Origin: Opitutales bacterium
GTDB taxonomy: Bacteria; Verrucomicrobiota; Verrucomicrobiia; Opitutales; Seribacteraceae
DNA: 33,300 nucleotides
Direction of reading: 5' to 3'
NCBI GenBank assembly: GCA_028042835.1
Contig: JAOFOL010000022.1
Location: 1-33,300 of the forward strand
Shown here: positions 3,106 through 31,380 of the stretch, piece after piece
Numbering within the stretch: the stretch's first letter is position 1
Layout of the letters: each line of letters begins with the position of its first letter
Notes under the pieces: generated by a model
The model's input: the letters and a program-made list of their open reading frames with translations, nothing else
The model's database searches: none
What the model was told of the DNA's origin: nothing
Program-made: the position numbers and the translations under genes

Positions 3106-3160
3106 GTGAATCCTAAAATTATTCCAAAATATTAAGCTAAAATAATAATACAAATATAAA

Positions 3161-3853: not shown

Positions 3854-3879
3854 GCTAAATCTCTTAAATTAAAGATAAA

Positions 3880-6516: not shown

Positions 6517-6533
6517 ATGCTATTTTTATTTTT

Positions 6534-7202
6534 ATGTATAGAATAGAAAGAAAATTTCTAGTGGATTGCACTTCTAAAGATAATGCACTTAGAATCCTGA
6601 AATTAAATAAAGTTTTAATCACTGAAAGTTTTCCTACTCGCTATATAAACAACATTTATTTTGACACTGAAAATCTGCAATGTTACCGAGATAATATAGA
6701 CGGAATTGACAAACGTTTTAAAATAAGAATTCGTTGGTATGGAGAATTATTAAAACCTCACAATGCCAAGCTTGAGATTAAGTATAAAAAAGGCCTTGCT
6801 GGATTTAAGCACTCATATTCCCTTCCATTTTCAATTTCAGGAAAACTGCCAAATTTTAATGAGATTAAGAATGCTATTGCATATTCAAATATTCCAAGTT
6901 CACTAAAAGTTATTTTACGCGAATTTCGACCATCTTTAGTAAATCGATATCAAAGAAATTATTTTGTTACATCTGATCAATGTTTACGCGTAACTTTTGA
7001 TTCTGATTTGCAGTATTTTTCAAGTAATTCTTTTTTAAGGAATCATATGAAATCATTTTCTTTATCCAAGGATTATATTATAGAGTTAAAATTTCCTTCA
7101 GAAAATTTATCAAATGGATCTGAATTCTCTAATTCACTGCCTTTTCGAATGACAAAAAACTCTAAGTACATTCAAGGGTTGAATCTACTCATGACAAGGT
7201 AA
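6534..7202 (+). CDS. VTC domain protein (polyphosphate polymerase type, triphosphate-tunnel fold)
   Basis: 222 residues, the size of a stand-alone bacterial VTC domain. The tunnel-lining charged motifs are in order: RIERKF (3-8), INNIYFDT (38-45), RFKIRIRWY (61-69), KLEIKYKKG (79-87), VNRYQRNYF (136-144), LRVTFD (151-156), YIIELKFP (181-188) and SKYIQG (210-215). In yeast the homologous domain of Vtc4 makes polyphosphate from ATP; activity of the bacterial single-domain versions is less clear to me. There is no membrane segment, so it is probably cytoplasmic and may work with the preceding DUF4956 membrane protein. ATG start 17 bp after the CotH gene, with no obvious ribosome-binding site; cotranscription is likely. 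Confidence 0.85.
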   Translation: MYRIERKFLVDCTSKDNALRILKLNKVLITESFPTRYINNIYFDTENLQCYRDNIDGIDKRFKIRIRWYGELLKPHNAKLEIKYKKGLAGFKHSYSLPFSISGKLPNFNEIKNAIAYSNIPSSLKVILREFRPSLVNRYQRNYFVTSDQCLRVTFDSDLQYFSSNSFLRNHMKSFSLSKDYIIELKFPSENLSNGSEFSNSLPFRMTKNSKYIQGLNLLMTR

Positions 7203-7221
7203 ATGATTGATTAATTTGAGT

Positions 7222-8322
7222 ATGGAAAAAAATTTAATCCTTTCATTAATTCTATGTTCTAGGAACGATAATTACATGGGAAATTCTAAGTGGCGTTTAG
7301 AAACATCAATTAATTTATCAATTATCCATGCGCAGGAGGTAGGTTTTCTCGATAATCTAGAAATTATAGTAACTGATTGGGGGAGCGAAATTCCGCTATC
7401 TTCGGTTCTCAACTTGGTGGCATTTGCTGAAAAAACTGTTAAATTTATTCATGTATCAAATTCATTAGCAAAATCATTACAAAAAGATAGTAAGTTCCCT
7501 GAAGTTATTGCATTAAATGCAGCGGCCCGAAAAGCCTCGGGTCAGTATATTGGTCGTATAGACAACGATACCATAGTAGGGCCCGAATTCTTTGAAAAAT
7601 TTAATCGAATCGCCTGTGGTGAGCAGTCTGTATGGTTCGAACCATCTAATGCATTCATGTTCATAGAGAGGAGGTCTATTCCCTATCGATATAGTTCTAA
7701 ATCGTATCCTATTTCTTACACATATAACTATATTAAGACTTATGGATCTAAACTGGAAATTGAAAGTGCAAGAGATTGGGGGTATCCCTTTTGGTGGAGT
7801 CCAGTTGGTATTATGGTTTTCCACAAAGATATTTGGAAAGAATCAAGAGGTTATGATGAAAAACTTATATATTGGGGATGGATGGAAAGTGATCTTGCTC
7901 TTAGATTAGGTAAAAAGTGTTTGCTTATTGATTTTAAGGATGTGGCAGGAAATTTTTTATATCATCTGGAGCACTACCCGAGTCTCACTTCTTACAAAGA
8001 TAGAAACGGTCCTGCGACACCCAGACAAAAAAATAAGGTTAAAATTTCTGGATTAAATTTTACTGTTAATAACGAAAATTGGGGCTTGAAGAGTCAAAAT
8101 CTTAAATTAGATAGTTGTAAAGCCAAAGATATTCTTGATGTAAATAATAATATTAATCCACTGTATATGCATAAGTTTATGCTTATGAAATACAGATTTA
8201 TTTACTGTAAAATAATAAGAAATACTGATCTACTTAGAATGAGATTACCAACAATTTTCTCAAACATCAAAAATTTTATAAAAATCAATTTAGGAAAAAT
8301 AAAAAAAATCTTACACCTTTGA
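7222..8322 (+). CDS. Glycosyltransferase, GT-A fold (GT2/GT7-like)
   Basis: 366 residues from the ATG at 7222; in-frame TTG codons at 7207 and 7216 would add up to five residues. MEKNLILSLILCSRND is a fitting N-terminal beta strand. A DxD-type metal motif (GRIDNDT) is followed by the aromatic, acidic segment YWGWMESDLALRL, which resembles the C-terminal GT7-type loop. The segment NAAARKASGQYIGRIDND is typical of GT2-like enzymes. It would transfer a sugar to the glycan in the cytoplasm. The C-terminal 60 residues are basic and AT-rich coded, perhaps for membrane association. It lies right after the CotH/VTC group, where the long glycosyltransferase run begins. Sugar specificity is unknown. 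Confidence 0.8.
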   Translation: MEKNLILSLILCSRNDNYMGNSKWRLETSINLSIIHAQEVGFLDNLEIIVTDWGSEIPLSSVLNLVAFAEKTVKFIHVSNSLAKSLQKDSKFPEVIALNAAARKASGQYIGRIDNDTIVGPEFFEKFNRIACGEQSVWFEPSNAFMFIERRSIPYRYSSKSYPISYTYNYIKTYGSKLEIESARDWGYPFWWSPVGIMVFHKDIWKESRGYDEKLIYWGWMESDLALRLGKKCLLIDFKDVAGNFLYHLEHYPSLTSYKDRNGPATPRQKNKVKISGLNFTVNNENWGLKSQNLKLDSCKAKDILDVNNNINPLYMHKFMLMKYRFIYCKIIRNTDLLRMRLPTIFSNIKNFIKINLGKIKKILHL

Positions 8323-8326
8323 TAAT

Positions 8327-9547
8327 ATAAAAATACTGTTGCTAACAGATATTGAATTCTCAGGCGGTGCTACTATTGCCGCGAGCCGTTCATGTGAGGC
8401 TTTTCAAAAACTTGGTCATGAAGTCTTCAGGATAGTTCCATGGCGAGAAAATGGTGAACGTTTTTGGAAACCTGTAGATTTATTCGAAGGTAGAAAGTAC
8501 AAATTACAAAAAGAAGTATGCGAGATATTTGGTTTAAAAAGTTTAAAAAAGAAACTTAGAGAGAAAGACTTATCATTAAGGTTAAATGAAATTATTAACA
8601 CGATTAAACCTGATATCATTAACATTCATAATATTCATTCTGCTGAATGGCCATTATCATTTATTAAAATATGCTTAAATCATGCAAATGTATGTTTGAC
8701 ATTACACGATATGTGGGCGTTTGCGGGTTTATTCTATACATATGAAGATTTGCCGGAAACTGAAATACCGCTTGAAATACCCCCTGATCAACAAAACTAT
8801 GTACAATTATTTTGGCAAAAATTCCATACTGAATATAAAAACAAAGATTTTAAGTTTGAATTAAAAATAGTTAGTCCGAGTAAATGGCTTTTAGATAAAG
8901 CTCAAAATAGCCATTTTAAGGATTTTTTTGGCAAAAAAATTCAACTATCTATCCCAACAGGTAGATTTAAATCTTGTACAAGAGAGTTATCGAGAAAAGC
9001 TTTAGATATACCACAGCACGAACCTGTTGCTCTATTTACTGCATCAAACTTAACCTTGCACAGCAAAGGTTGGCACTATTTATCAGAGATTGGAAAGTCA
9101 AATATCCCACTCCCATATACGCTTCTAATAATGGGCGATGGAGGAACTTTTATAAAAAACGACTTTAGTGGAATAAACATTAAAATATTAGATATGGGCT
9201 ATGTTAGAGATGATAGGCTAAAGTGGATGATATATAGGGCAGCAGACATTACTTTACACCCTGCACCTGTAGACAATCACCCTAATACTGTTTGTGAGTC
9301 AATTGCAGCAGGAACACCAGTGATTTCATTTAATATTGGAGGGTTACCTGAACTAGTAATAGAAAAAAAGACAGGGTGGATTGCAAAAGAAATAAATACA
9401 AATGATTTTCACAAAACAACTATCAAAGCATTCGAAGATATCAAAAACGGCATTCGTTATGAAACAACATGCCTTGAATATGCGGAAAAAAACTTAGACC
9501 AAGTAAACCAGGCAAAAAAATACTTGGATCTATGGGAAAATTGGTAA
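8327..9547 (+). CDS. GT4-like glycosyltransferase, probable ATA start
   Basis: From the ATA at 8327 the protein is 406 residues and begins MKILLLTDIEFSGGAT, a complete first beta strand plus the glycine loop of a GT-B enzyme. The first canonical start in frame is a TTG at 8339, which would cut the strand down to LTD. ATA is therefore preferred but the TTG cannot be excluded. Other landmarks are the HDMWAFAGL motif typical of one GT4 subgroup and NTVCESIAAGTPVISFNIGGLPEL, the donor-sugar site (here only its core CESIAAGTPV matters). The stop of the previous gene is 4 bp upstream, and no ribosome-binding site is seen. Product role: retaining glycosyl transfer in glycan assembly. Confidence 0.85.
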   Translation: MKILLLTDIEFSGGATIAASRSCEAFQKLGHEVFRIVPWRENGERFWKPVDLFEGRKYKLQKEVCEIFGLKSLKKKLREKDLSLRLNEIINTIKPDIINIHNIHSAEWPLSFIKICLNHANVCLTLHDMWAFAGLFYTYEDLPETEIPLEIPPDQQNYVQLFWQKFHTEYKNKDFKFELKIVSPSKWLLDKAQNSHFKDFFGKKIQLSIPTGRFKSCTRELSRKALDIPQHEPVALFTASNLTLHSKGWHYLSEIGKSNIPLPYTLLIMGDGGTFIKNDFSGINIKILDMGYVRDDRLKWMIYRAADITLHPAPVDNHPNTVCESIAAGTPVISFNIGGLPELVIEKKTGWIAKEINTNDFHKTTIKAFEDIKNGIRYETTCLEYAEKNLDQVNQAKKYLDLWENW

Positions 9548-9563
9548 AAGCAAAATTTTGTAA

Positions 9564-10307
9564 ATGAAACATCTAATAAAGGAAATGCTGAGGGTTTTTG
9601 GATATGAAATCAGAAAAATAACATCTGCGTATGTGGATACTCCATTTGAAGAAACTGAAAATGGAAAATTTGTTAACCTCTTGAGAAAACACAGTATTGA
9701 TTTAGTTTTTGATGTGGGAGCAAATAACGGGACATGGGCACTTGAACTAAGAGAATCGGGTTACAATGGAGAGATAGTTTCAATAGAACCGTACCAAAAA
9801 AGCTATAATTTATTGAAAGAAAAAGCTGTTAAAGACAAAAAATGGAAAACATTGCACTGTGCAATAGGCGACTATGAAGGGAAAACAACTTTATACGTAG
9901 CAAGTAATACATTAAGCAGTTCGCTCTGCAAAATGACTGATAAACACCTAGAAGGTGCAAAAGATTCAAAATATGTTGGATCAGAAAAAGTAGATGTGAA
10001 AAAACTAGATAACTATGTGAATAAAGTTAGAGGAAAGAATGTATTTATAAAAATTGACACTCAAGGTTTTGAAAAACGAATTTTAAAAGGGTCTAATCTA
10101 GTTATGCCAAATGTTAAAGGCTTACAAGTAGAAATGTCATTCAAAAAATTGTACGAAGGTGAAATCACATTGTTTGAAATGCTGGATTATATAAATGAAT
10201 TAGGTTTTAACTTACAGTATCTAAATAATGGTTTTAAACACGAGAAAACAGGAGAATTACTTCAAGTCGATGGAATATTTTACAGAAATCACGATAATTT
10301 AATATAA
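9564..10307 (+). CDS. FkbM family methyltransferase
   Basis: 247 residues. The SAM-binding loop is VFDVGANNGTWALEL (about residues 49-63), with an acidic strand end EIVSIEP after it and the later FkbM motif FIKIDTQGFEKRILKG, where the Asp and Gly-Phe-Glu are family hallmarks. FkbM-type enzymes O-methylate sugars or polyketides, and in this locus O-methylation of a glycan residue is the natural reading. ATG start 16 bp after the preceding glycosyltransferase. The last codons overlap the proposed ATA start of the next gene by 4 bp. A second, distantly similar FkbM gene is at 28841, so the glycan may carry two different methyl groups. Confidence 0.9.
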   Translation: MKHLIKEMLRVFGYEIRKITSAYVDTPFEETENGKFVNLLRKHSIDLVFDVGANNGTWALELRESGYNGEIVSIEPYQKSYNLLKEKAVKDKKWKTLHCAIGDYEGKTTLYVASNTLSSSLCKMTDKHLEGAKDSKYVGSEKVDVKKLDNYVNKVRGKNVFIKIDTQGFEKRILKGSNLVMPNVKGLQVEMSFKKLYEGEITLFEMLDYINELGFNLQYLNNGFKHEKTGELLQVDGIFYRNHDNLI

Positions 10308-11491
10308 AAGTAAAAGAAAATTTAAGTTACCCAAAGATTCTGATAATTACAGAATCACCTCATGGTAGCAAAAACGGATTTGGTAAAACATTAGACACAT
10401 TTTTTTACGGTTGGCCAAAGTCTTGTCTACATACAATGTATACTGATTATCAGTTCTATCAGGAATTTAAAAATAAAAGAGGGTTTACCTTTTGCCATGT
10501 TCCACAACATAGAGGCAAAAGGTACGCAGTTACATTTTTATTGGGTCTAAAACCAGAATGGAGGAATCGATATTCGAAAAGGTGGTTAAATAAATCACTT
10601 AAAGAATACCGACCTGGAATCGTTTATACTATGTTTTACTCTGTTGAGTGCCTAAAATATGCTTATTGGGTTGCAAATTGTTATAATGCGAAACTTATTT
10701 CTCATATAGCAGATGACCCTTTTGGTGAAGAAATAGATAGAGATATAAAGAACATAATTCAGAATTCTAATGACAGGTTTGCGATAAGTAAAATGTCTGC
10801 AATTCACTATAATAAGATGTTCGACTGTGAATTTAAAGTTTTTCATAATGGCCCGACTGCGAAATTCTTTGAAAACCGACATAAAAACAGAAGTGAATCA
10901 AAAAAATTTTTGATACGCTTTATTGGCAATTATTATAAATTCGTGCATGAAGATGCTGTAGATGATCTAATGAATATTATACAGAGGTTAAATCTTAAGC
11001 ATAAATTTAATATTTGTTTAGAATTTTGGGGCGGAGAATTTCCACATTCCAGTCTTCAAAAGAAGTGTATTACATCTGAGATTTCATTTATGGGAAGATT
11101 CAATGAAAAAAACAGTACACATCTACATTTCGAAGCCGATCTACTTTTTCTTCCAGCGAGTTTCAATAAAAACTCGGTTGATCATTACAGATTTTCTTTC
11201 CCTACAAAGTTGACTGAATATTTAGCTACAAAAATACCAACTCTAATTTATTCGCCCAAAGAAACTTCTTTTTACGATTATTGTAAAACAAATAATCTAG
11301 GAATTCTTGTGGGAGAAAACAAAAAAAATATCTTGGAAGAAAAATTACTCGATATAATTTTAAACTATAAATTTTATGAAAAGAATGCTATTAAAAATAG
11401 CAATTTCATTTTTGAGAACGAACATGCAAATCAAATAAAAAAAAGATTTCAAGATACATTGCTAGCCAAAAATAAAAATGATGGAAATTGA
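10304..11491 (+). CDS. GT-B glycosyltransferase with ATA start overlapping the upstream stop
   Basis: 395 residues when started at the ATA at 10304, whose last two bases belong to the TAA stop at 10305-10307. An in-frame stop at 10295 and the absence of ATG, GTG or TTG until 10436 leave the ATA as the only sensible start. Starting at 10436 would lose 44 residues, including PKILIITESPHGSKNGFGKT, the first strand and phosphate-loop-like glycine turn of a GT-B fold. Further on, LFLPASFNKNS and a KLTEYLATKIPTLI segment resemble the GT4 donor site. No ribosome-binding site is seen; translational coupling to the FkbM gene is likely. The family is inferred from the fold pattern; the sugar is unknown. 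Confidence 0.78.
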   Translation: MKVKENLSYPKILIITESPHGSKNGFGKTLDTFFYGWPKSCLHTMYTDYQFYQEFKNKRGFTFCHVPQHRGKRYAVTFLLGLKPEWRNRYSKRWLNKSLKEYRPGIVYTMFYSVECLKYAYWVANCYNAKLISHIADDPFGEEIDRDIKNIIQNSNDRFAISKMSAIHYNKMFDCEFKVFHNGPTAKFFENRHKNRSESKKFLIRFIGNYYKFVHEDAVDDLMNIIQRLNLKHKFNICLEFWGGEFPHSSLQKKCITSEISFMGRFNEKNSTHLHFEADLLFLPASFNKNSVDHYRFSFPTKLTEYLATKIPTLIYSPKETSFYDYCKTNNLGILVGENKKNILEEKLLDIILNYKFYEKNAIKNSNFIFENEHANQIKKRFQDTLLAKNKNDGN

Positions 11492-12422
11492 AACTTTGAG
11501 ATATAGATTCCACGAAAAATACCCAAGAAAAATTTTATCTAAAATAAGATGGTTTATTATAAATAGACAAAAAAATATTTTACCATTCTTAAATGTTATT
11601 GGAGGGAAATTTACTGTGGTCGATGCGTTTGGATCCCCTGGCGACACTCTCCTATCAACAAATATAATTTCAGCAATAAAAGCAAAATATAAAAGATTAC
11701 AAATTAATCTTATTACCAAGAACCCTGATATAATAAAAAATGATCCTAATATAAAGTTTATAAACAGATTTGAAACATACTTCTCAATAACATTTTGGTA
11801 TTTAAACTTGATTGAGAATAAAGATAGTAGAACAAATGTTCTCTTCGACACACTAAATGACATAGGTATAAATGATTATGTCTATAAATGTAATGTATAT
11901 TTAGAAAATGATGAAAAAAAGTGGGCTAGAGAAAAAATATCAAAAAATAATAAAATTAAAATAGCGTTTAACTGTAGATCAAAACAAGAGGTTAAGAACT
12001 GGCCTGTAGAAAATTGGGAGTTTTTAATAAAATCACTTCAAGATTTTGAATGGATTCAATTAGGTGACCACACTGAACCATTTATTAAAAACGTAGTTAA
12101 TTTTTCCGGAAAATTAAATAGGCGTGAATCAATTTCAATTATGTCAGTTTGTGATTTGTTTATCGGACCTGACAGTTTCCTAGCACATGCTGCTAACGGT
12201 TTAAATTTAAAATCTCTGGTTATTTTTGGTGGAAGTAGAACAATTCAAAATCTCGGATATTCTGATAATATAAATATTGAAGACCGACCACACTGCAGTC
12301 CATGCTGGATAAATCAAGATGATGACCAAAAATGCACGCATAAACTCAAATGTCTATCGAACATAAAGGTTGAAACCGTAAAATCGCAAATCATAACTTT
12401 ACTAACGCCAATAGAAGGCTAA
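11478..12422 (+). CDS. GT9 (heptosyltransferase-like) glycosyltransferase
   Basis: 314 residues, overlapping the previous gene by 14 bp, with an ATG-ATG start. The segment VVDAFGSPGDTLLSTNIISA is the GT9 N-terminal GD(V/T)L signature, and the second domain has CDLFIGPDSFLAHAANGLNL with the G-x-D-S-x-x-x-H-x-A pattern of ADP-heptose:LPS transferases. It ends with four cysteines (HCSPCW and CTHKLKC), a feature of a GT9 subgroup, possibly structural. It would add heptose or another sugar to an LPS-like acceptor. Only 314 residues against about 320-350 for typical members. A second, more canonical GT9 gene starts at 17027. Confidence 0.8.
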   Translation: MMEIETLRYRFHEKYPRKILSKIRWFIINRQKNILPFLNVIGGKFTVVDAFGSPGDTLLSTNIISAIKAKYKRLQINLITKNPDIIKNDPNIKFINRFETYFSITFWYLNLIENKDSRTNVLFDTLNDIGINDYVYKCNVYLENDEKKWAREKISKNNKIKIAFNCRSKQEVKNWPVENWEFLIKSLQDFEWIQLGDHTEPFIKNVVNFSGKLNRRESISIMSVCDLFIGPDSFLAHAANGLNLKSLVIFGGSRTIQNLGYSDNINIEDRPHCSPCWINQDDDQKCTHKLKCLSNIKVETVKSQIITLLTPIEG

Positions 12423-12452
12423 TGATTTCATTTTAATAAGGTGCTATAGACA

Positions 12453-13364
12453 ATGGGCGAGATAAAAAGAGTTTTTATATCTGGTTTTAAATACGATGTT
12501 AATTTCACTCGTACATGTGTAAGTAGCATCAGAGAGTACTATCCGCTTATCCCGATAACACTTATTAAAGATAAGTACTACGGAGACTTTTACACAAATG
12601 ACATTGAGAAGCATTACAATGTAGATGTAATGGATGTTGGGAATAGAGTTTTTAGTTGGGGATTTGCTAAACTTGAGCCACTATTTTTACCTGTAAAAGA
12701 AAAGTTCTTAGTTCTTGATTCAGATACAGTGATTCTAGGAAAACTATTGGAATTTTTGGATAGTTTTAATCATCAGTTTATCGTATCCGGTCACAAAACA
12801 GAATTAAACTTTCAAAGTCAACAGTACTATGTTCCTGCTGAGATAGAAGAATTCGATAAAGAATTTAAACATCCAGGATACGGATTTAATACCGGTCAAT
12901 TTGTAGCAACATCAGGCATTTTCAAAAGAGAAGACTTTAATACACTTGTTGATTTTAATAATCCTCCTGTACTAAAGAATACCTCATTATTTAGGTATGG
13001 AGAACAAGGTTTATTAAATTACTTCTTGTACAAAAACTATCAGTGTGAAAATATATCACTAAAAAATGTTCCCTTCATGCATACAGGTGATAATCCGGCT
13101 GTTAAAAATTTAACAACTGAAAATATTAGGAAAAATCAATTCTCTCCTTTAGTTATACATTGGGCTGGTATGAGAAATAAAAACTTTAATAAAATGCATA
13201 GTGGATGGATCCTAAATTATTTTGAAAAAAAATATTATTCAAAAATTAAGTTTGGTTTTATCTTAAAAAAATTAAGAATATTTAAATTAATACTTATTGA
13301 CTTTACTAAGAACAAAATTAAATATGTAAGGAAACTTCATATGATAAATTTTTTACATAGTTAA
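12453..13364 (+). CDS. Putative GT8-like glycosyltransferase
   Basis: 303 residues. The sequence KFLVLDSDTVILG (around residue 88-100) carries a DxD metal and nucleotide-sugar motif after a hydrophobic strand. A downstream VIHWAGMR resembles the His-containing C-terminal motif of GT8 enzymes. NTGQFVATSGIF and YGEQGLLNYF fit the acceptor-binding part of the same fold. This is one of the few genes here with a plausible ribosome-binding sequence (AAGGTG, about 10 bases before the ATG). The C-terminal 40 residues are strongly basic. It is similar in design, though not clearly in sequence, to the gene at 21741. The family assignment is by motif only and the donor sugar is unknown. Confidence 0.62.
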   Translation: MGEIKRVFISGFKYDVNFTRTCVSSIREYYPLIPITLIKDKYYGDFYTNDIEKHYNVDVMDVGNRVFSWGFAKLEPLFLPVKEKFLVLDSDTVILGKLLEFLDSFNHQFIVSGHKTELNFQSQQYYVPAEIEEFDKEFKHPGYGFNTGQFVATSGIFKREDFNTLVDFNNPPVLKNTSLFRYGEQGLLNYFLYKNYQCENISLKNVPFMHTGDNPAVKNLTTENIRKNQFSPLVIHWAGMRNKNFNKMHSGWILNYFEKKYYSKIKFGFILKKLRIFKLILIDFTKNKIKYVRKLHMINFLHS

Positions 13365-13428
13365 TTAAAATAATAAGTATTATTTATTTTTTTCTTTACT
13401 ATTTTTGTTTTTATTTCAATTTAAAATA

Positions 13429-14244
13429 GTGCAGATTTCTGCTTTTATCCCTTGCTATAATAACGAAAGTACAATTGCTACTGCAATTGAAAGTATACAA
13501 TCACAAACGACAATAATTGATGATTTTTTTATAATCGATGACTGCTCAACTGATAACTCACTTCGAATTATTGAAGAGAATAATGTTAAGGTGTATAGAA
13601 TGCCTTCCAACATGGGCAGGGGATATGTTCGTTACATGTCAACAAAAATTGCAAACCACTCTATAATATTATGCTTAGACGCTAATAAAAGTTTAAATCC
13701 TAGTTTTGTTGAGAACGGAATTAAACATTTTGTTGATAACAAAATTTCTGCCGTGATAGGTTCTATAAGCTATAACAACACAAATAATTATCTAGATCGT
13801 TGGAGAAATATTTATTTGTTTAAATCTGATTACAATCACCATGAACTAGTTGATTGTGGTTTAATTACATATGGAACCTTAATGAGAAGGAATGCTATTT
13901 TAGAAGTTGGAAATTACGATCAATCACGAATACATTCAGAAGATGCTGAACTTAGCATTCGCTTAAAAAATAATGGTTGGAGAATAATTTCAGATCCAAC
14001 ATTAATTGTTCACTCTCTTAGCAGTGATTCATTTTGGAAACTTTTGGAAAGGTATTGGCGATGGTATGCAGGTACAAATGTAGATGTATCTATTAAAAAT
14101 TATTTATTGAATATTTTTTATTCATTCTCCTATATGAGTAGAAGAGATCTTAAGGATAAAGACTATAAACGATTACTTCTTTCAATCATCTGTCCTCATT
14201 TTCAATTTTTTAAAAACATAACTTCTAAGCTAAAGTTACTATAA
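13429..14244 (+). CDS. GT2 family glycosyltransferase
   Basis: About 271 residues. QISAFIPCYNNESTIATAI is the standard GT2 N-terminus, and IDDCSTDNS and the LDANKS segment give the nucleotide-binding Asp and a DxN-like metal site. Later HSEDAELSIRLKNNG matches the ED acceptor and base motif. The start is uncertain: GTG at 13429 gives the usual short lead-in, ATA at 13426 is also possible by analogy with neighbours, and TTG at 13405 would add eight residues. The 64 bp before the GTG are almost pure A/T. The TAA stop overlaps the ATA start of the next gene. It acts in the cytoplasm as an inverting transferase; sugar unknown. Confidence 0.85.
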   Translation: MQISAFIPCYNNESTIATAIESIQSQTTIIDDFFIIDDCSTDNSLRIIEENNVKVYRMPSNMGRGYVRYMSTKIANHSIILCLDANKSLNPSFVENGIKHFVDNKISAVIGSISYNNTNNYLDRWRNIYLFKSDYNHHELVDCGLITYGTLMRRNAILEVGNYDQSRIHSEDAELSIRLKNNGWRIISDPTLIVHSLSSDSFWKLLERYWRWYAGTNVDVSIKNYLLNIFYSFSYMSRRDLKDKDYKRLLLSIICPHFQFFKNITSKLKLL

Positions 14245-14984
14245 AATTACTAAGAAGATTATTAGCGTGGAAAAATAGATATCCTCTAATAAGTTATTTC
14301 TTATCTCGAACAGATGATTTTTTTGACAAATTAGTTTTTTGCTTTCTTGGTTCAAAAAAATCAATTTCCAGAAAAAATTTATTAGAATTAAAATCAGTCA
14401 ACGAAAAATATAATTTTACTGTAAATTTATTAAATCCACATCAGAACAAAAAAGAAATCATTACACTTATAAGCTTTGTTAATAAAATTAAACCCAAAAC
14501 ATTTTGTGAAATTGGTACTGCATGCGGAGGAACTAATCTTTTAATCTCTCAATGCGTAGAATCTCTTGAAAAAGTAGCAGGAATTGACTTAGAGATGCGT
14601 AACACGCACAAGTTAAAATATTATTTAAATCACTTAAATCACTGCTACATCAGAAGTAACTCTTCATGTTTAAAAACTCTAAATACCATTTCTGATTTTT
14701 TCATAAATGACGGAATTGATTTTTTGTTTATAGACGGCGACCATACATACGGTGGTGTAAAAAAAGATTTTGAACTCTATTCACCTTTAGTCAATAAGAG
14801 TGGTATAATTGCTTTTCATGATATCATTCCGGACTTTCAAACTAAATATGGTAAAAGGACAGGTAATTATGCCGGTGATGTACCAATTTTTTGGAATGAA
14901 ATTAAGAAATTCTATCGGTACGAAGAAATATTTATTTCCCCAAAACAAGACGGTTTGGGTATAGGCATCCTATATGTAGATTAG
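14241..14984 (+). CDS. Class I SAM methyltransferase with ATA start
   Basis: 247 residues from the ATA at 14241, which overlaps the TAA stop of the GT2 gene (ATAA). There is no ATG, GTG or TTG in frame between the in-frame stop at 14226 and the ATG at 14595. That ATG lies after motif I (FCEIGTACGGTN) and would leave half a fold, so the gene is longer than a canonical-start call suggests. Other motifs are AGIDLE, DFLFIDGDHTYGGVKKDF and GIIAFHDI, the pattern of the Methyltransf_24 or cephalosporin-hydroxylase-like group that often methylates sugars in antigen loci. The N-terminus, KLLRRLLAWKNR, is amphipathic and basic, perhaps a membrane tether. Substrate unknown. Confidence 0.8.
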   Translation: MKLLRRLLAWKNRYPLISYFLSRTDDFFDKLVFCFLGSKKSISRKNLLELKSVNEKYNFTVNLLNPHQNKKEIITLISFVNKIKPKTFCEIGTACGGTNLLISQCVESLEKVAGIDLEMRNTHKLKYYLNHLNHCYIRSNSSCLKTLNTISDFFINDGIDFLFIDGDHTYGGVKKDFELYSPLVNKSGIIAFHDIIPDFQTKYGKRTGNYAGDVPIFWNEIKKFYRYEEIFISPKQDGLGIGILYVD

Positions 14985-14987
14985 ACA

Positions 14988-16010
14988 ATGTCGAAGATAA
15001 AAAAGTTCATATATTTAACATGTTTACCGACTTTAGTACTACTTTTATTAATCGAATTTGCAATACGTATTCACAAGTTCGGATTTGACGCTGCTATATC
15101 TCCAGCAATTATGAATTCGCTTTTTGGAAAACCGGAATACTTTCAAAAATCAAAATTCCCTGAAATTGTCTACGAGTTACGTCCCAACCTTAATACTATT
15201 TTCGCTAAAGTCCCTTTTAGAACCAATAAATTTGGTATGAGAGACAAGGATTTCAGTAAAAGTAAACCTGAAACCATAATTAGGTATGCATGTGTAGGTG
15301 ACTCGCTAACTATGGGAAGAGGTGTTAAACTTAGTGGTGTATTTCATACTAGGTTGGAGGACAGAATGAATCATGAAATGAAACCAAAGAAATTCGAATT
15401 CCTGAATTTTGGAGTAGGAGGATATGATTTAAGACAATACATCGGGGTAATCAAAGAAAAGGTATTAAAGTTTGATCCTGACTACATCATTATTGGTTTC
15501 TGCGGAAATGACACCATCATACAACCTGATGATTATTACAAACCAAGAACCTTTTCTGGAAATCATTACGGAAACCTTTTCTTACATTCTTGGACAAAGG
15601 AATGGATACACGAGAGATATATTAGATTAAGGAAAAATAATAATAAAGAAATGATAGTGAAAAAAGAAAAACAGACTAATGAACAAATATCTATCAAACC
15701 CATTTCTGACTACCTTTATGAAAAGTTAAATGTTGTTGCAAAAATCAGTAAGAAGACAAAGATTCCGATAATAATTGTTCATCTAACTTACAATGGAGGG
15801 GAAATTGTTATAAATAATAAACTTAAGGAGGTTTGTAGGTCACTCGATATCCCATTTCTAAACACTGGAAATTTTTTCCCAAACGACCCAGTAGGTAACT
15901 ATATCAAATACTGTATATTTCGACATGATGGACACCCAAATTCTGATGCAAACGAAATATTTGCAGATAAAATTTTTGATTTTATAAAAAATAATAAGTT
16001 TTACAATTAA
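14988..16010 (+). CDS. SGNH/GDSL hydrolase family protein, membrane-anchored
   Basis: 340 residues with one N-terminal hydrophobic anchor (about 5-24). Block I is CVGDSLTMG, with the nucleophile Ser in GDS. Block II is NFGVGGYD, where Gly helps form the oxyanion hole. Block III is GFCGNDTI with Asn, and block V is HDGHPN with the catalytic Asp and His. All four SGNH residues are therefore present, unlike the DltD-like protein at 2128. Such enzymes in glycan loci remove or transfer O-acetyl groups outside the inner membrane. ATG start 3 bp after the methyltransferase. The stop overlaps the proposed ATT start of the sulfotransferase gene. Confidence 0.85.
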   Translation: MSKIKKFIYLTCLPTLVLLLLIEFAIRIHKFGFDAAISPAIMNSLFGKPEYFQKSKFPEIVYELRPNLNTIFAKVPFRTNKFGMRDKDFSKSKPETIIRYACVGDSLTMGRGVKLSGVFHTRLEDRMNHEMKPKKFEFLNFGVGGYDLRQYIGVIKEKVLKFDPDYIIIGFCGNDTIIQPDDYYKPRTFSGNHYGNLFLHSWTKEWIHERYIRLRKNNNKEMIVKKEKQTNEQISIKPISDYLYEKLNVVAKISKKTKIPIIIVHLTYNGGEIVINNKLKEVCRSLDIPFLNTGNFFPNDPVGNYIKYCIFRHDGHPNSDANEIFADKIFDFIKNNKFYN

Positions 16011-16896
16011 ATCTAGAAAAATATTTATATTTGCACATATCCCCAAAACCGCGGGAGTTACATTTCACAGGATATTATATAACAATTTTAAGGCGAATGA
16101 ATTATTATTCACCTATGGAAATCCTTTTCCAAATGAAACTTTTATCAATCATAAACACTGTGAAAAAATTAAGGTCATATTAGGGCACTTTGCTTACGGT
16201 ATGCATGAAAATATAAACGCAAATATAAATTTCTCATATATCACCTTTTTACGAAGTCCCTTAGATAGAATCATTTCTGAATATCACTACTTACGTTCTT
16301 CTCCTCGCGGTTATCCGTTATTCGATCGAGAAATTTATGAAAAAAAAATGCCTTTGGATGAATTTGTCAGGAATGGTCTATCAGTTTCAGTAGATAACCT
16401 CATGGTTCGTGCGGTTTCAGGAGTTGGGTGTGAAGGTATTGGCACTGCTTTTCACACTGCTAAAAGCGTTTCAAAAAAGAAATGGAAAGGAATATCTGAA
16501 GAAGATTTAAAACTAGCAAAAGTAAATATAGGTAAATATTATAATTTTGTCGGTATTACAGAATTATTTGATGAATCTATGCTTCTTTTGAGAGAAAAAT
16601 TAGGTTGGAAAAATATTTCTTATAAAAGAAGTAATATAGGTGATAAAAAAAGAGAAATTCCAAATTCATTAAAGGAAGAAATTATAGATTTGAATAAGTG
16701 GGATTATAAATTGTACGAATACTGCAAAGAACAATTTGTTAAGGAATGTGATAATTATGATGTTGAAAATAAATTAGATGATTTCCGAAAAAAAAATCAG
16801 CACCCCCCCCTTTTGAGAAAACTCAGCAACCGAATTTATTCACTGGCAAAAAGTAGTATTCGGTCGTTAATGATAAACAAACCGAATAAACATTAA
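16006..16896 (+). CDS. Sulfotransferase family 2-type protein, ATT or ATA start
   Basis: 296 residues if begun at ATT 16006, whose last base is the first base of the upstream TAA (16008-16010). In-frame ATA codons at 15991 and 15994 are alternatives. No ATG, GTG or TTG occurs in frame from the stop at 15985 until 16201. That ATG would remove IFIFAHIPKTAGVTFHR, the PAPS 5'-phosphosulfate loop that defines the family. The 3'-phosphate loop is TFLRSPLDRIISEYHYLR. It would transfer sulfate from PAPS to a sugar hydroxyl, resembling heparan-2-O-sulfotransferase-like proteins. Near the end it holds an A9 and a C8 tract 6 bp apart. PAPS-making genes are not in the window. Confidence 0.82.
   Translation: MKSRKIFIFAHIPKTAGVTFHRILYNNFKANELLFTYGNPFPNETFINHKHCEKIKVILGHFAYGMHENINANINFSYITFLRSPLDRIISEYHYLRSSPRGYPLFDREIYEKKMPLDEFVRNGLSVSVDNLMVRAVSGVGCEGIGTAFHTAKSVSKKKWKGISEEDLKLAKVNIGKYYNFVGITELFDESMLLLREKLGWKNISYKRSNIGDKKREIPNSLKEEIIDLNKWDYKLYEYCKEQFVKECDNYDVENKLDDFRKKNQHPPLLRKLSNRIYSLAKSSIRSLMINKPNKH
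16788..16810 (+). repeat. Adjacent homopolymers A9 and C8 inside the sulfotransferase gene
   Basis: Nine A (16788-16796) and, after six bases, eight C (16803-16810) lie about 30 codons before the stop of the sulfotransferase gene. A run of eight C is striking in a gene that is otherwise very AT-rich. Such tracts are prone to slipped-strand length change and could switch the C-terminal tail. Whether they vary in nature cannot be seen from one sequence, and a sequencing or assembly length error is also possible. Confidence 0.6.
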
Positions 16897-16920
16897 CAAT
16901 TTTCTCATAAGCATATAGTG

Positions 16921-16943
16921 TATAATATTATAATTAAGAGGAG
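16921..16943 (+). promoter_or_regulatory. Possible promoter -10 and Shine-Dalgarno in a 130-bp gap
   Basis: The gap 16897-17026 between the sulfotransferase and GT9 genes holds TATAAT at 16921-16926, with no good -35 box 17 bp upstream. Ten bases later comes AAGAGGAG at 16936-16943, the best ribosome-binding sequence I saw in the whole window. Oddly, it points at GTG-TAA (16949-16954), at a four-codon TTG frame and at a six-codon ATG frame (16958-16978), not at a real gene. It may be a leader peptide, a remnant of a lost gene, or chance. The rest of the gap is plain A/T-rich sequence. Confidence 0.3.
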
Positions 16944-17026
16944 ATATTGTGTAACAAATGATTTTTGGCAATCTTTAGTTTAACTTATAAAACTTTTATA
17001 ATCACATTGCTTTAAATATTTAAATT

Positions 17027-18070
17027 ATTAAGGTTAAAAAAGTATTCATATTACGAAATAATGACTTAGGTGATGTTCTAACTACTACGCCTCTATTGTT
17101 CAGTTTAAAATCAAACAGACCTGAACTTGAAATTTCAATTGGAGTAGGAAATTGGGCTAAACCGCTTTTACAAAATAATCCTGACATTGATGATGTCATT
17201 TGCTGTAACGCTCCTTGGCATAATAAACAAAACTGTTTTTACCCTGCGAATTCTCCCAAAACATTCTTAACGGGATTATTTTATGTACTCTTCTCTCGAG
17301 AGTCTCATGCAATTAGCAAAAGGAGATTTTCACATGGAATAGATGTTCTAGGAAGTAGACAAGGGTCTTGGCTTTTGAGAAAAGCAAAAATTCGAAACAG
17401 GTATGGAGTAAAAGGATATGCAGGGGGAGATAAGTGGTGCCAAAAATTCATAACGTATAAGAACGATAGAAATGTTATAAGTGCCAACCTTAAGTTCGCA
17501 GATTTTTTGGGAATAAATCCCACAACTGAAGCTCGCCCGAGAATCTATTTAACCAAACAAGAATTGGTTGAAGGGAAAAATGTTTGGACAAATACGGATG
17601 GAAAAATACGAAGAATAGTCATAGCACCAGGAGGTGGTTTTGAGGAAAAATGTTGGGGGAACAATAATTATACAGAACTGGTAAGCAAACTGTCGCAAGT
17701 TACTGCACATGAAATTATCATAGTCGGATCAAAAGAAGATTCTTCCAGAATTTCTTTACCAAGTTCAAAAAAGATTAAAAATCTCTGTGGGAAAACGAGT
17801 TTACGCAAGACAGCATCTGTAATCAAAAACGCAGATTTAGTTATAAACAACTCATCCGTTGCCATGCATTTAGCAGGCACATTCAGTATTCCTTCTATTA
17901 CATTATTAGGAGGATTTTATGACAATGCATCTCTTCACCATAAGCAATGGGGATATCCTGAATCCTTAGTTTTAGGCAAAGAGACCAATGTTGGCATAAA
18001 TAAAATTACGGAAGTAGATGAGGTGCTTAGTGAAGTAGAAGCGATGATGAAACGTAAGATAATGAATTGA
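17027..18070 (+). CDS. GT9 heptosyltransferase-like glycosyltransferase, ATT start
   Basis: 347 residues from ATT 17027 (ATT 17024 is equally possible; an in-frame stop is at 17021). The first canonical start, TTG 17096, would delete KKVFILRNNDLGDVLTTTPL, which is the GT9 signature strand and GD-x-L loop, so it cannot be right. The second domain has IAPGGGFEEKCW at the donor site, IIIVGSKED, and ADLVINNSSVAMHLAGTF, matching the usual N-S-x-x-x-H-x-A pattern. Length is normal for ADP-heptose:LPS heptosyltransferases. It probably adds heptose or a related sugar. Its stop overlaps the TTG start of the next gene (TTGA). Confidence 0.85.
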   Translation: MKVKKVFILRNNDLGDVLTTTPLLFSLKSNRPELEISIGVGNWAKPLLQNNPDIDDVICCNAPWHNKQNCFYPANSPKTFLTGLFYVLFSRESHAISKRRFSHGIDVLGSRQGSWLLRKAKIRNRYGVKGYAGGDKWCQKFITYKNDRNVISANLKFADFLGINPTTEARPRIYLTKQELVEGKNVWTNTDGKIRRIVIAPGGGFEEKCWGNNNYTELVSKLSQVTAHEIIIVGSKEDSSRISLPSSKKIKNLCGKTSLRKTASVIKNADLVINNSSVAMHLAGTFSIPSITLLGGFYDNASLHHKQWGYPESLVLGKETNVGINKITEVDEVLSEVEAMMKRKIMN

Positions 18071-19092
18071 AAATTTGTTTTATATCTGGACCATATCAGC
18101 CTCAAAGATGTGGGATTTCTGACTACATTGATCTACTTATTTCTGAATTCTCTAAAATCAACATTGAGTGTGTTCATACGATTATTAATCAAAAAAATCC
18201 GTTATCTAAAGTGGCAAATAATCTACCCGACGCGGATATTTACAGCATTCAATTTGCACCCTATTTTTTTTCACCTACTGGTCTATCAGCTAACTCGCTT
18301 CAAAAATTAGCCGCATCTCTTCGTAATCGTAAACTTCACATTAACTTTCATGAAATTTGGGTTGGTGCATACCCAAAAGCGAAATGGAAAGAAAAAATTT
18401 TGGGATGGTTTCAGAAAAAAGAAATCAAATCCTTTATAAAAGTAAGTGAGCCAAAAATTATTACTTGCTCAAACTCTGCCGTACTAGATCGTTTACAAAA
18501 AGAAAGTATAAAGGCTCAGTATCTTTATCTATGTGGTACAGTTCCTTTTTCCCCGTGTAGAGAGACTGATACATCCGACCATCTTAGAGTTGCTTTTTTC
18601 GGAACTCTTTACGAAAAATTTAACTATGAACATACAGCAGTTTTGTTAAAAAATATTTCAATCTCACTCAAAAAAAATATTTTGATAGATGTAATTGGCA
18701 GGCAAAGAGAAGATGATGGATTTAAAAAGATGCAAGCAACTTTCAAAAGCTTTGGTTTCATAACAACTGTGACCGGTGAGCTCAATAGAACTCAAATTTC
18801 TCGAAAGATTCAGAAATGTAAAATTGGAGTTACAACCACTCCATATGATATAATCGGGAAAAGCAGTGCTACCGCAACTCTTCTGGAGCATAGAATACCA
18901 ATTATTGCATTTGACGATAGAGACACGCCAACAGAAAAATTATTTGTGATGAAAGAATTTGAGGAACAAGTATTCCTACTCGACGACGACTCGGTGACTG
19001 ATCGCTTACTTAAATCAATTCAAAAACCTAGAATAGCACAGTTTGATGGCGCTGCTTACACCGCAAAGGAAATGTTAAAATTGCTCCGTTGA
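18067..19092 (+). CDS. GT4-like glycosyltransferase
   Basis: 341 residues; TTG start overlapping the upstream TGA (TTGA), giving MKICFISGPYQPQRCGISDY, a normal GT-B N-terminus with a glycine loop. AFFGTLYEKFN is the linker and second-domain strand, and the C-terminal part has a weak donor site, SSATATLLEHRIPIIAFDD, in place of the usual E-x-x-A-x-G pattern. That suggests a divergent GT4 subgroup. Its own stop again overlaps a TTG start at 19089. Base composition is intermediate between the AT-rich genes to the left and the GC-richer ones to the right. Substrates unknown. Confidence 0.75.
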   Translation: MKICFISGPYQPQRCGISDYIDLLISEFSKINIECVHTIINQKNPLSKVANNLPDADIYSIQFAPYFFSPTGLSANSLQKLAASLRNRKLHINFHEIWVGAYPKAKWKEKILGWFQKKEIKSFIKVSEPKIITCSNSAVLDRLQKESIKAQYLYLCGTVPFSPCRETDTSDHLRVAFFGTLYEKFNYEHTAVLLKNISISLKKNILIDVIGRQREDDGFKKMQATFKSFGFITTVTGELNRTQISRKIQKCKIGVTTTPYDIIGKSSATATLLEHRIPIIAFDDRDTPTEKLFVMKEFEEQVFLLDDDSVTDRLLKSIQKPRIAQFDGAAYTAKEMLKLLR

Positions 19093-19637
19093 AACCTAAA
19101 AAACAAGAAACTGCTTATCAAAATCCGTGGCCATGGTGGCATCAATTTATTTTAGTATGTTGGCGGCTCGCTTGGTTTTTCTGTTGCAGGTGGACGCCCA
19201 AGTTTTTCAATCCCTGGCGGATTCTTGTACTTAAAGTTTTTGGGGCGAACCTTTCCGGACTTCCATTCGTACATAGTTCTGCAAGAATTCAAATTCCGTG
19301 GAATTTAACGATGCAGCATCGTGCCTGCCTCGGCGAATGCGCAAATGCTTATTCCCTTGGGAAGATAGAGGTCCTACAGGGGGCGACCGTAGCCCAGGAA
19401 GCCTATCTCTGCACTGGAACCCATGATTTCACAGACCCTAGCTTACAACTTATTACCAAGCCTATCACGATTGGGAAAAATTCTTTCATTGGAACCCGGG
19501 CAATGATTCTTCCAGGAGTCATTATTGGGGACCAGGCAATCGTCGGTGCAATGTCGGTGGTTTCCAGAGATGTACCCGATCATCAAATCGTAGCGGGTAA
19601 TCCCGCCAAAAATATTGGAAAAAGACCCACAAGTTGA
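19089..19637 (+). CDS. WcaF-type sugar O-acetyltransferase (left-handed beta-helix)
   Basis: 182 residues, TTG start overlapping the upstream TGA. The N-terminal half has the Trp-rich, membrane-skimming segment of colanic-acid WcaF-like acetyltransferases (NPWPWW, FFCCRW, FNPWR). The second half is hexapeptide-repeat sequence: ITIGKNSFIGTRAMILPG, VIIGDQAIVGAMSVVSRDV and the terminal IVAGNPAK. The His in CTGTHDF is the catalytic candidate. It would transfer acetyl from acetyl-CoA to a sugar, on the cytoplasmic side. GC content jumps at this gene (a sampled line near 19.4 kb is above 50%, against under 30% near 6 kb), so it may have arrived with a different block of DNA. Confidence 0.88.
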   Translation: MKPKKQETAYQNPWPWWHQFILVCWRLAWFFCCRWTPKFFNPWRILVLKVFGANLSGLPFVHSSARIQIPWNLTMQHRACLGECANAYSLGKIEVLQGATVAQEAYLCTGTHDFTDPSLQLITKPITIGKNSFIGTRAMILPGVIIGDQAIVGAMSVVSRDVPDHQIVAGNPAKNIGKRPTS

Positions 19638-20620
19638 GCAAAGATATAATCAATAAAAAGATTCTCATTACTGGAGGTCTAGGTTTCATTGGTTCCAACC
19701 TAACTCGCAGGTTGGTTGAGCATGGAAACACCATCACGGTGGTGGATAGTTTGATTCCTGAATATGGAGGGAACCTCAGAAATCTTCACGACATACAAAA
19801 CAAGATTACAGTTAGCCTATCCGATGTGCGCGATGTTCCAGCGATCAATGACTTGATCAAAGGGCATGATTACCTATTTAACTTAGCGGGGCAGACCAGT
19901 CATTTGGACTCGATGCACGACCCAATTACAGACTTGGACATCAATGCAAAAGCTCAACTTTCTATTTTGGAGGCCTGTAGGAAATACAATCCGGATATAC
20001 GCATAGTATTTGCCAGCACCCGCCAGATTTATGGAAAGCCCAAGTACTTGCCGGTTGATGAGAAACATCCAGTGCACCCGGTAGATGTAAATGGAATTAA
20101 TAAAATTGCCGGTGAGCAGTACCATATCCTCTATCAAGAAGTATATGGAATTGCATCTTCCGTTCTTCGTCTAACCAATACCTACGGGCCAAGGATGCGC
20201 ATCAAAGATGCCAAGCAAACCTTTTTGGGTATCTGGATAAGAAACTTGCTAGAAGGCAAACAGCTTCAGGTTTTTGGGGATGGACAGCAGCGCAGGGACT
20301 ACAATTATGTTGAGGATGTGCTGGATGCCTTGCTTATCACTGCAACTAAAGAAAATGCCGTCGGCAAGGTCTATAATTTGGGAGCACCCGACCCTCTCAG
20401 TCTTGAGGATACCGCGAAGATTATGTGCCAAGGGATCGAGGGCAGTGATTACCAAATGATTCCTTTTCCTGAGGAGCGAAAAGCTATAGATGTGGGAGAT
20501 TTCATTTGTGATTACAGTTCTTTTCGTAATCAATTTGGATGGGAACCCAAAGTAAATTTTGAAGAGGGCATTCAGCGATCCCTTGAGTATTTCAAAGATG
20601 AAATTGAACATTACATTTAG
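19634..20620 (+). CDS. NAD-dependent sugar-nucleotide epimerase/dehydratase (extended SDR), Tyr replaced
   Basis: 328 residues, TTG start in a TTGA overlap. The Rossmann motif KILITGGLGFIGSN (about 9-22) has the G-x-x-G-x-x-G pattern, with D38 at the end of the second strand. The usual catalytic Y-x-x-x-K reads N153-G-I-N-K157, followed by the normal IAGEQYH, so the general-acid Tyr is Asn while Lys is kept. The SST-like motif is ASTRQIYG (127-134). It would act on a UDP-, GDP- or dTDP-sugar, and the adjacent aminotransferase suggests a keto-sugar intermediate. I have a vague memory of other sequences with this Asn, so it may define a subfamily, but the chemistry is unclear. Confidence 0.85.
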   Translation: MSKDIINKKILITGGLGFIGSNLTRRLVEHGNTITVVDSLIPEYGGNLRNLHDIQNKITVSLSDVRDVPAINDLIKGHDYLFNLAGQTSHLDSMHDPITDLDINAKAQLSILEACRKYNPDIRIVFASTRQIYGKPKYLPVDEKHPVHPVDVNGINKIAGEQYHILYQEVYGIASSVLRLTNTYGPRMRIKDAKQTFLGIWIRNLLEGKQLQVFGDGQQRRDYNYVEDVLDALLITATKENAVGKVYNLGAPDPLSLEDTAKIMCQGIEGSDYQMIPFPEERKAIDVGDFICDYSSFRNQFGWEPKVNFEEGIQRSLEYFKDEIEHYI

Positions 20621-20629
20621 CAATTTCCG

Positions 20630-21727
20630 ATGATTCCGTTTAGCGATCCATCTGCTTCCTACCAAGCACATAAGTCTGAAATTGATCTTGCGATCAAGCG
20701 GGTACTCGACTCGGGATGGTATGTTTTGGGCAGTGAAGTTGACGCGTTTGAGAAAGAATTCGCATCTTTTCATGGTAAAGATTTGCATGCTGTGGGAGTG
20801 GCAAATGGAACCGATGCGATTGCCTTGTGTCTGAGATGTCTTGGCCTTGAGGCTGGAGATGAGGTTATCACCCCATCCCACACGGCAGTGGCCACGGTTG
20901 CAGGAATTGAACAGGCATATTGCACCCCAGTATTTGCAGATATTGAACCGATCTCGAAATGTATCGACCCAAAATCAATAGTGAAAAGAATTAGTGCTAA
21001 AACACGAGCTATTATGCCGGTCCATATTTATGGACAGCCATCTGCCATGAAAAGTATTTTAGAAATTGCGGAGTATCACCATCTTGAGGTTATTGAAGAT
21101 TGTTCTCAAGCACATGGATCTGAAATTGACGGACAAAAAGTGGGAACATTTGCTAAACTATCCGCATACAGTTGCTACCCTACCAAAAACCTAGGAGGAA
21201 CTGGGGATGGTGGTGTCATTCTTTGCCAGTCTCAAGAATTTGCAGACAAAATAAAATCTCTTCGTCAGTATGGCTGGAACGAAAAGAGAGAAAGTACTAT
21301 TCCCGGATTTAATTCCCGTCTCGATGAACTACAAGCTGCTATTTTGCGAGTTAAGCTAAGATACCTGAGCGATGATAATAAAAAACGACGAACCATCGCA
21401 AAGATGTATAGCCAAGCTTTTAATCATCTGCCGATTACCCTTCCCTCTCAAAACACAAACGAGGTGCATGCGATGCATTTGTATGTGATTGAATGTGAAC
21501 AAAGGGATGAATTGTTAGAATCCTTAAGATCTAAAAAGGTAGGTGCTAGTTTGCATTATCCTTTGGCGGTTCATCAGCATGCTGCTTATGCCAATCGTAT
21601 AAGAGGAGGTGATGATTTGCCGATGACTGAAAGTTTTTACAATAAAAACCTCACTTTACCGATGTATCCAGAATTACCTAATGAAAAGGTTGAAGAAATT
21701 ATTACTTCAGTAAAAAGTTGGTTTTGA
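20630..21727 (+). CDS. DegT/DnrJ/EryC1/StrS PLP-dependent sugar aminotransferase
   Basis: 365 residues, the usual family length, ATG start 9 bp after the SDR gene. The PLP lysine is K186 in SCYPTKNLGGTGDGG. Other landmarks are ANGTDAI (59-65, phosphate grip), PSHTAVAT (82-89), VIEDCSQAHGS (154-164, with the Asp that contacts the pyridine nitrogen and His below it) and the substrate loop GWNEKRES. Such enzymes convert nucleotide-bound keto sugars to amino sugars with glutamate as donor. With the SDR just upstream it forms the only sugar-nucleotide pathway visible here. The exact sugar (3-amino or 4-amino) cannot be told from sequence. Confidence 0.93.
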   Translation: MIPFSDPSASYQAHKSEIDLAIKRVLDSGWYVLGSEVDAFEKEFASFHGKDLHAVGVANGTDAIALCLRCLGLEAGDEVITPSHTAVATVAGIEQAYCTPVFADIEPISKCIDPKSIVKRISAKTRAIMPVHIYGQPSAMKSILEIAEYHHLEVIEDCSQAHGSEIDGQKVGTFAKLSAYSCYPTKNLGGTGDGGVILCQSQEFADKIKSLRQYGWNEKRESTIPGFNSRLDELQAAILRVKLRYLSDDNKKRRTIAKMYSQAFNHLPITLPSQNTNEVHAMHLYVIECEQRDELLESLRSKKVGASLHYPLAVHQHAAYANRIRGGDDLPMTESFYNKNLTLPMYPELPNEKVEEIITSVKSWF

Positions 21728-21740
21728 TCAACAGAGATTG

Positions 21741-26027: not shown

Positions 26028-26051
26028 AGTGCTTGAGACTTCAATTTGCCG

Positions 26052-28820: not shown

Positions 28821-28840
28821 AATGATCCCAACATTGTCTC

Positions 28841-31362: not shown

Positions 31363-31380
31363 GAGAAGACTAATCTTCTC
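31363..31380. promoter_or_regulatory. Perfect 7-bp inverted repeat in the gluQ/helicase divergent region
   Basis: GAGAAGA-CTAA-TCTTCTC is a perfect 7-bp stem with a 4-base loop, ending 15 bases before the ATG of the helicase gene and lying 38 bp from the gluQ start. It could be an RNA hairpin in the helicase 5' leader or a DNA operator read from both sides. It is not a terminator: no T run follows on the + strand, and on the - strand it is followed by GTCGTAG. Confidence 0.5.

Follow-up and report, generated by a model that had tools for sequence, protein, structure and literature searches.

Probable AUA and AUU start codons in surface-polysaccharide genes of an uncultured marine genus of Verrucomicrobiota

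Introduction

Where does translation begin in a gene that offers no ATG, GTG or TTG ahead of its conserved N-terminal motifs? This question is raised by a surface-polysaccharide gene cluster within the window, that is, the whole stretch of 33,300 nucleotides that was analysed. The window is a complete contig (C26) of a 2.1-Mb assembly that is 63% complete and consists of 110 contigs, and with a GC content of 0.34 it is lower in GC than every readable stretch sampled, with one exception. It is chromosomal and comes from an uncultured marine genus of Verrucomicrobiota (Opitutia). A DEAD-box helicase gene anchors the contig in the chromosome of the genus: of the 26 other genomes of the genus, 19 contain a full-length match (79–99% identity) and another a partial one (86%), and the region from 29.9 to 33.3 kb is syntenic with four relatives, which argues that the window is not misbinned.

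The features relevant to the question, all on the forward strand, are the following:

586..30546, +, surface-polysaccharide gene cluster containing the five genes under study (Pfam annotation and tblastn)
8327..9547, +, GT-B glycosyltransferase (Pfam Glyco_trans_1_4, E 8e-14), with a proposed ATA start
10304..11491, +, GT-B-like glycosyltransferase (weak: Glycos_transf_1 at 21.9 bits, below the cut-off of 26.4)
14241..14984, +, SAM-dependent methyltransferase (Methyltransf_24/CmcI-like, Pfam E 2e-14, domain at residues 89–195)
16006..16896, +, sulfotransferase (Pfam Sulfotransfer_2 from residue 4)
17024..18070, +, GT9 glycosyltransferase (Pfam Glyco_transf_9), with an ATT start at 17024 or 17027
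31396..32613, +, DEAD-box helicase

Comparison of 29 window genes with 17 genus stretches by tblastn divided the cluster at the GT9 gene. From this gene rightwards (17024–30546) it is matched in up to six of the stretches, and to the left of it matches are mostly missing or weak. The loci of the relatives come from separate assemblies generated by several projects, and names such as AG-919-G08 presumably denote single cells.

Start regions of the five genes

The first-pass annotation had proposed that these genes start at ATA or ATT, each time before a lysine codon, and direct reading of the sequence bore out the coordinates and codons of all five starts. The gene at 8327 (ATA AAA) begins 4 nt past the preceding gene and has the previously noted TTG alternative at 8339, four codons downstream. 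The other four contain, as claimed, no ATG, GTG or TTG ahead of their N-terminal motifs. At 10304 (ATA AAA), 46 codons follow the upstream stop before the first such codon, at 10436; at 14241 (ATA AAA), 122 codons pass without one and the first, at 14595, lies within the Pfam domain; at 16006 (ATT AAA), 71 codons separate the upstream stop from the first, at 16201; and in the GT9 gene there are 24, up to 17096. Three of these genes overlap the stop codon of the previous gene, as ATAA at 10304 (TAA 10305–10307) and 14241 (TAA 14242–14244) and as ATTAA at 16006 (TAA 16008–16010). In the GT9 gene, whose proposed start at 17027 reads ATT AAG, an in-frame TAA (17021–17023) is followed from 17024 by ATT ATT AAG.

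These 5' regions look coding. When stop-to-stop frames were ranked by coding score among 456 intrinsically called genes, from a 613-kb sample of the window's own genome, the start-less 5' regions of frames 14229, 10298, 15988 and 17024 took ranks 1, 3, 4 and 7, the last being less extreme if judged by its start-less length alone (24 codons). A fifth start-less call in the window, 31339 (the helicase), was a false positive. The stretch by which its frame is extended is a hairpin-containing leader that, as protein, is not conserved beyond L052.

The alignment of N-termini with homologues, which had been suggested as a check, located a canonical start in the same column for three of the five genes. 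For 8327, six of the ten homologues shown (14 loci given) have one exactly at the ATA column, namely TTG in L199, GTG in L207 and ATG in L200, L204, L209 and L211. For 16006, GTG occupies the ATT column in L191, one of the ten shown. For the GT9 gene, position 17024 aligns without a gap, as counted by eye, with TTG in the closest orthologue (G022), so that the column agrees if translation starts there, and the gene may indeed start at 17024 rather than 17027. For the remaining two genes no such column was obtained: homologues of 10304 keep the KILIxxE region and mostly start shortly upstream of it, and the search with 14241 gave no homologue covering its first residues.

In three of 12 genus loci the GT9 gene has no canonical start; the others have TTG or ATG. 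Among the latter, L129 has a distant TTG only and is doubtful, and L131, a thirteenth locus that a contig end interrupts, was left out. The three loci are those of G000, the window's genome (ATT AAG), G007 (likely ATA AAA) and G020 (likely ATT AAA); apart from the window's own gene, the orthologues devoid of a canonical start are L121 and L126. Between the closest pair, G000 with its ATT start and G022 with TTG, dN is 0.14 and dS 0.60 (dN/dS about 0.23), and therefore the gene is functional. Within its F-I-L-R motif, an ATA of the window aligns with ATT or GTT in most of the relatives shown, which is consistent with ATA being read as Ile rather than Met. Start-less coding frames and homologous start columns thus both support the proposed ATA and ATT starts, and calling these genes from canonical starts would, as had been warned, truncate them wrongly at the 5' end.

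Enrichment in polysaccharide loci

The frequency of such genes was assessed by intrinsic gene calling with three-periodic Markov models by GC class, in which the 5' region without a canonical start was scored. The class that was counted comprises start-less genes with ATA, ATT or ATC (ATH) followed by AAA or AAG within the first 20 codons. The polysaccharide set consisted of the window and 23 genus stretches around polysaccharide loci, labelled by locus and not by single genes, and the remaining set of sampled stretches from the rest of G000, G007 and G010. Start-less ATH-Lys genes numbered 14 of 240 in the former and 2 of 914 in the latter (Fisher p 1.7e-8), and the difference persisted at GC below 0.38 (14/135 vs 1/150, p 2e-4). 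A third set, 15 loci that carry more distant GT9 genes and mostly have a higher GC, contained none in 202 genes. Start-less genes of any kind totalled 18, 19 and 4 in these three sets, respectively. As for the two cases elsewhere, L162 adjoins the G007 cluster and L021 is doubtful, having also an ATG 17 codons in. Use of ATH starts across the whole genome is therefore not supported by the sampled remainder, with its 2 cases in 914 genes.

The lysine codon is a strong part of the signature. Ile-Lys occurs in the first 16 codons of 14 of the 18 start-less genes from polysaccharide stretches, where 1.5 would be expected from gene bodies; the scored ATH-Lys is the first such dicodon found, and in L101 the start probably lies elsewhere. 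If the 222 other genes of these stretches are provisionally taken to start at their first canonical codon, Lys is the second codon in 35 of them, so it looks like a property of ATH starts. Among these 222 genes the first canonical codon is TTG in 90, compared with 174 of 895 elsewhere; this excess suggests that in AT-rich, variable polysaccharide loci start-codon selection appears weaker, or that low output is favoured. The O16/colanic acid region of E. coli K-12 served as a control, only a rough one because its annotation is curated: from 24 CDS, two cut, one broken and one transposase were dropped, and all 20 that were left have canonical starts (ATG 19, GTG 1).

Replication was sought in 20 further stretches, picked by homologue matches or lying near them, with models trained on the first set only. 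The outcome is positive, although weaker than in the first set (4/229 vs 14/240): start-less ATH-Lys genes make up 4 of 229 compared with 2 of 914 elsewhere (p 0.017), divided into 3 of 148 within the genus (p 0.021 alone) and 1 of 81 elsewhere in the order. The last of these, L244 (the gene of L221, ATT AAG), was known before its stretch was chosen, and L237 is doubtful; one clear new case (L236, 1584) again presents an ATTAA overlap. Rescored with the replication models, the first set gave 15 of 237. ATH-Lys occurs in 4 of the 16 start-less replication genes, with 1.3 expected. As the other 12 are without it (four of them have ATH-Asn), start-less calls are not all ATH starts, and part of them are probably remnants or false calls, like the helicase leader among the five calls of the window.

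Sequence context of the starts

Shine–Dalgarno (SD) signals offer little explanation for the choice of these sites. SD-like cores were found upstream of 96 of 750 starts in the genus and in 85 of 750 control intervals, with no clear enrichment, and in none of 14 ATH starts in the tested interval, so that rescue by an SD sequence was not observed. The 16S tail nevertheless keeps the anti-SD CCTCC in the two genus genomes in which it was found. Local mRNA structure is weaker at the ATH starts, with a mean MFE of −3.2 kcal/mol (n=14) compared with −4.8 at canonical starts (n=106, p 0.02); internal sites average −6.5 kcal/mol (n=129). The distance to the upstream gene, known for 13 of the 16 ATH-Lys sites (8327 is outside this count), varies: six overlap its stop, including the doubtful L021, three lie at 23–31 nt and four at 130–246 nt. 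Coupling to the upstream gene may therefore help some genes and does not appear to be needed by all.

Initiation factor 3 and the initiator tRNA

It had been proposed that changes in infC might relax start selection, and the gene gave little support to this idea. IF3 (IF3_C) was found in 22 of 27 genus genomes, and the five in which it was missed, the window's own assembly among them, are 60–66% complete. Eleven of 12 IF3 loci align from the N-terminus along their length with E. coli IF3, the other being cut. Loss of IF3 was thus rejected, and no change that would relax start selection was identified in the 11 aligned sequences; relaxation by point changes may nonetheless occur. The infC gene of the genus itself appears to begin ATG GTN ARR.

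The initiator tRNA carries the ordinary anticodon. Of 27 genus genomes, 21, including G000, contain a single match to a pattern for its anticodon arm, with identical matched letters; the six genomes without a match are 57–67% complete in five cases and 91% in one. Since the anticodon is CAT in all 21, a different initiator that would read AUA or AUU was rejected. The complete tRNA was read from G000 and nine other genomes, and its identity was judged from two genus tRNAs aligned with E. coli metZ, the sole comparison outside the genus. In E. coli tRNA numbering, in which C1xA72 is the usual initiator feature, the genus tRNA has an A-U pair at 1-72, C as the discriminator and, where the usual run of three G-C pairs in the anticodon stem would begin, A29-U41. 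According to the available part of one study, G1338 of the 16S rRNA contacts the initiator pair 29-41, and a swapped pair 30-40 lowers discrimination against CUG in vitro (PMC11497404). It is a speculative idea that the altered tRNA contributes to ATH starts through looser start-codon discrimination. Its role would be at most permissive, because it is seemingly genus-wide and the ATH starts occur mainly in polysaccharide loci.

Proposed model and alternative explanations

The model that we favour proposes that these genes probably initiate at AUA or AUU, and rarely AUC, at sites of weak mRNA structure, without an SD sequence and, in most cases, with Lys as the next residue. These start codons would be read, with a mismatch at the third position, by the usual initiator tRNA with its CAU anticodon, and an AU-rich, unstructured site together with the Lys second codon may offset the weak start codon. 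Translation would be low, and such enzymes may tolerate or even need low output, in which case AT-directed mutation could replace ATG, TTG or GTG by ATA or ATT. The simple origin suggested by the first-pass annotation, ATGA turning into ATAA, fits 10304 and 14241, but neither the ATTAA case nor the two genes that do not overlap. Where the start overlaps the preceding stop, coupling to the upstream gene would help. By analogy with infC and sigR, these genes would have low output and be sensitive to IF3. In vitro, E. coli components in which CAU reads AUU yielded very little full-length product, as described in the accessible part of that work (PMC10158994), and this counts against easy initiation unless the lineage differs. 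We keep as a tentative, rather doubtful extension that the whole lineage has a relaxed start rule, in which little SD use and the unusual initiator tRNA would allow useful initiation at AUA, AUU and AUC, polysaccharide genes being a low-output, IF3-tunable set.

Translation might instead arrive from the upstream gene, by termination-coupled re-initiation or by frameshifting at the overlap, with no de novo start. In its favour, three of the five genes share nucleotides with the stop before them (ATAA or ATTAA) and a fourth follows at 4 nt, ATTAA overlaps are found again in relatives, and a coupled E. coli reporter re-initiated at non-AUG codons when given matching anticodon-mutant initiator tRNAs. 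In the same study, in the part available, re-initiation in E. coli was inhibited when IF3 was in excess, and it depended on the very initiator-tRNA features that initiation de novo requires (PMC2268962). Together with the four ATH-started genes at 130–246 nt (17027 and three genes of relatives), this means that re-initiation, which had been put forward as making start identity less critical, cannot be the rule. Frameshifting would require a shift that varies between gene pairs, and no slippery heptamer was seen by eye in the window overlaps. On balance, a general dependence on the upstream gene is unlikely. It is very improbable that the genes are decaying after start loss, as pseudogenes of a variable locus, or that only internally started fragments are expressed: the cluster varies in its left half, the window is AT-rich and some other start-less calls resemble remnants, but the frames are long and intact, they retain their N-terminal motifs, the GT9 gene shows the low dN/dS given above, the same start-less state recurs in other species, and decay would not yield so strong an ATH-Lys signature. 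The incomplete, fragmented assembly and the low GC of the window could also suggest that bases were misread or misassembled, or that the bin contains a foreign contig; this is hardly credible in view of the helicase matches, the synteny with four relatives and the repetition of the pattern in separate assemblies of other species.

Comparison with known systems

Starts outside ATG, GTG and TTG have precedents in bacteria. Non-canonical initiation codons have reportedly been demonstrated in Deinococcus deserti by N-terminal proteomics, whereas those described here are proposed from the sequence; to our knowledge, the starts in that species are linked neither to a single class of genes nor to Lys in second position. 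The AUU/AUC starts of infC, the gene for IF3, and the GTC start of Streptomyces sigR are likewise non-NUG codons that initiate bacterial protein-coding genes, and they are IF3-sensitive, as the available part of the report states (PMC5472188). Those are single genes, whereas here several unrelated polysaccharide genes are involved, in several species; the genus also differs in its own infC, apparently begun with ATG, from E. coli infC, whose record gives ATT. Some Verrucomicrobia have been listed as SD-scarce with CCUCC, and the genus resembles them in keeping the anti-SD while its SD cores are not clearly enriched; non-NUG start codons are not mentioned in the available portion of that list (PMC10783764). 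Belinky et al. counted one AUG-to-AUU switch among 61,358 reconstructed AUG starts, according to the accessible part of their study (PMC5622118). In the open-licence literature, no report was found of clustered AUA/AUU starts in polysaccharide loci or in Opitutales.

Gene finders limited to ATG, GTG and TTG would truncate or lose such genes, and a bias may therefore exist in the N-termini and start-codon statistics recorded for uncultured lineages. Should the starts be confirmed, these loci would provide a natural system for studying how the ribosome chooses a start with little SD guidance and an altered initiator tRNA. Single AUU/AUA starts are known, as in infC; what appears to be new is that such starts cluster, across the genus, in a single class of genes.

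Region between the conserved glycosyltransferase and helicase genes

Two features lie in or near the interval that separates the conserved GT2 gene from the DEAD-box helicase gene:

30543-31325, minus strand: open frame of 260 aa with an ATG start, between the two genes
31363-31380: hairpin GAGAAGA-CTAA-TCTTCTC in the helicase leader, slightly upstream of the helicase start at 31396

Comparison of the DNA at 30777-31233, within the minus-strand frame, with five relatives gave no match. The hairpin is possibly a leader element. It is identical in the leader of one relative's locus (L052), its arms are unchanged around a different loop in L053-L056, and the arms are altered relative to the window in L085. 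When the whole leader was considered, 20 of 200 shuffled sequences folded as well or better.

Initiator tRNA and IF3 of the genus

In the window's own assembly (G000), eleven small contigs, C3-C12 and C14, consist of N in place of sequence letters. The initiator-type tRNA was located in this assembly:

Contig C18, 33643-33668 (locus L263): initiator-type tRNA-Met(CAT); further loci of the genus, L251-L260

Its anticodon arm, as matched by pattern search, is identical in all 21 genus genomes with a match. The genus tRNA has the anticodon stem TCAGG/CCTGA, that is, A29-U41, together with an A1-U72 pair and C73.

From the sequences of the infC loci (L135-L144 and L146), infC of the genus appears to start with ATG rather than with a non-canonical codon. 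The IF3 encoded at these loci carries an acidic C-terminal tail of about 40 residues or longer, which is absent from E. coli IF3.
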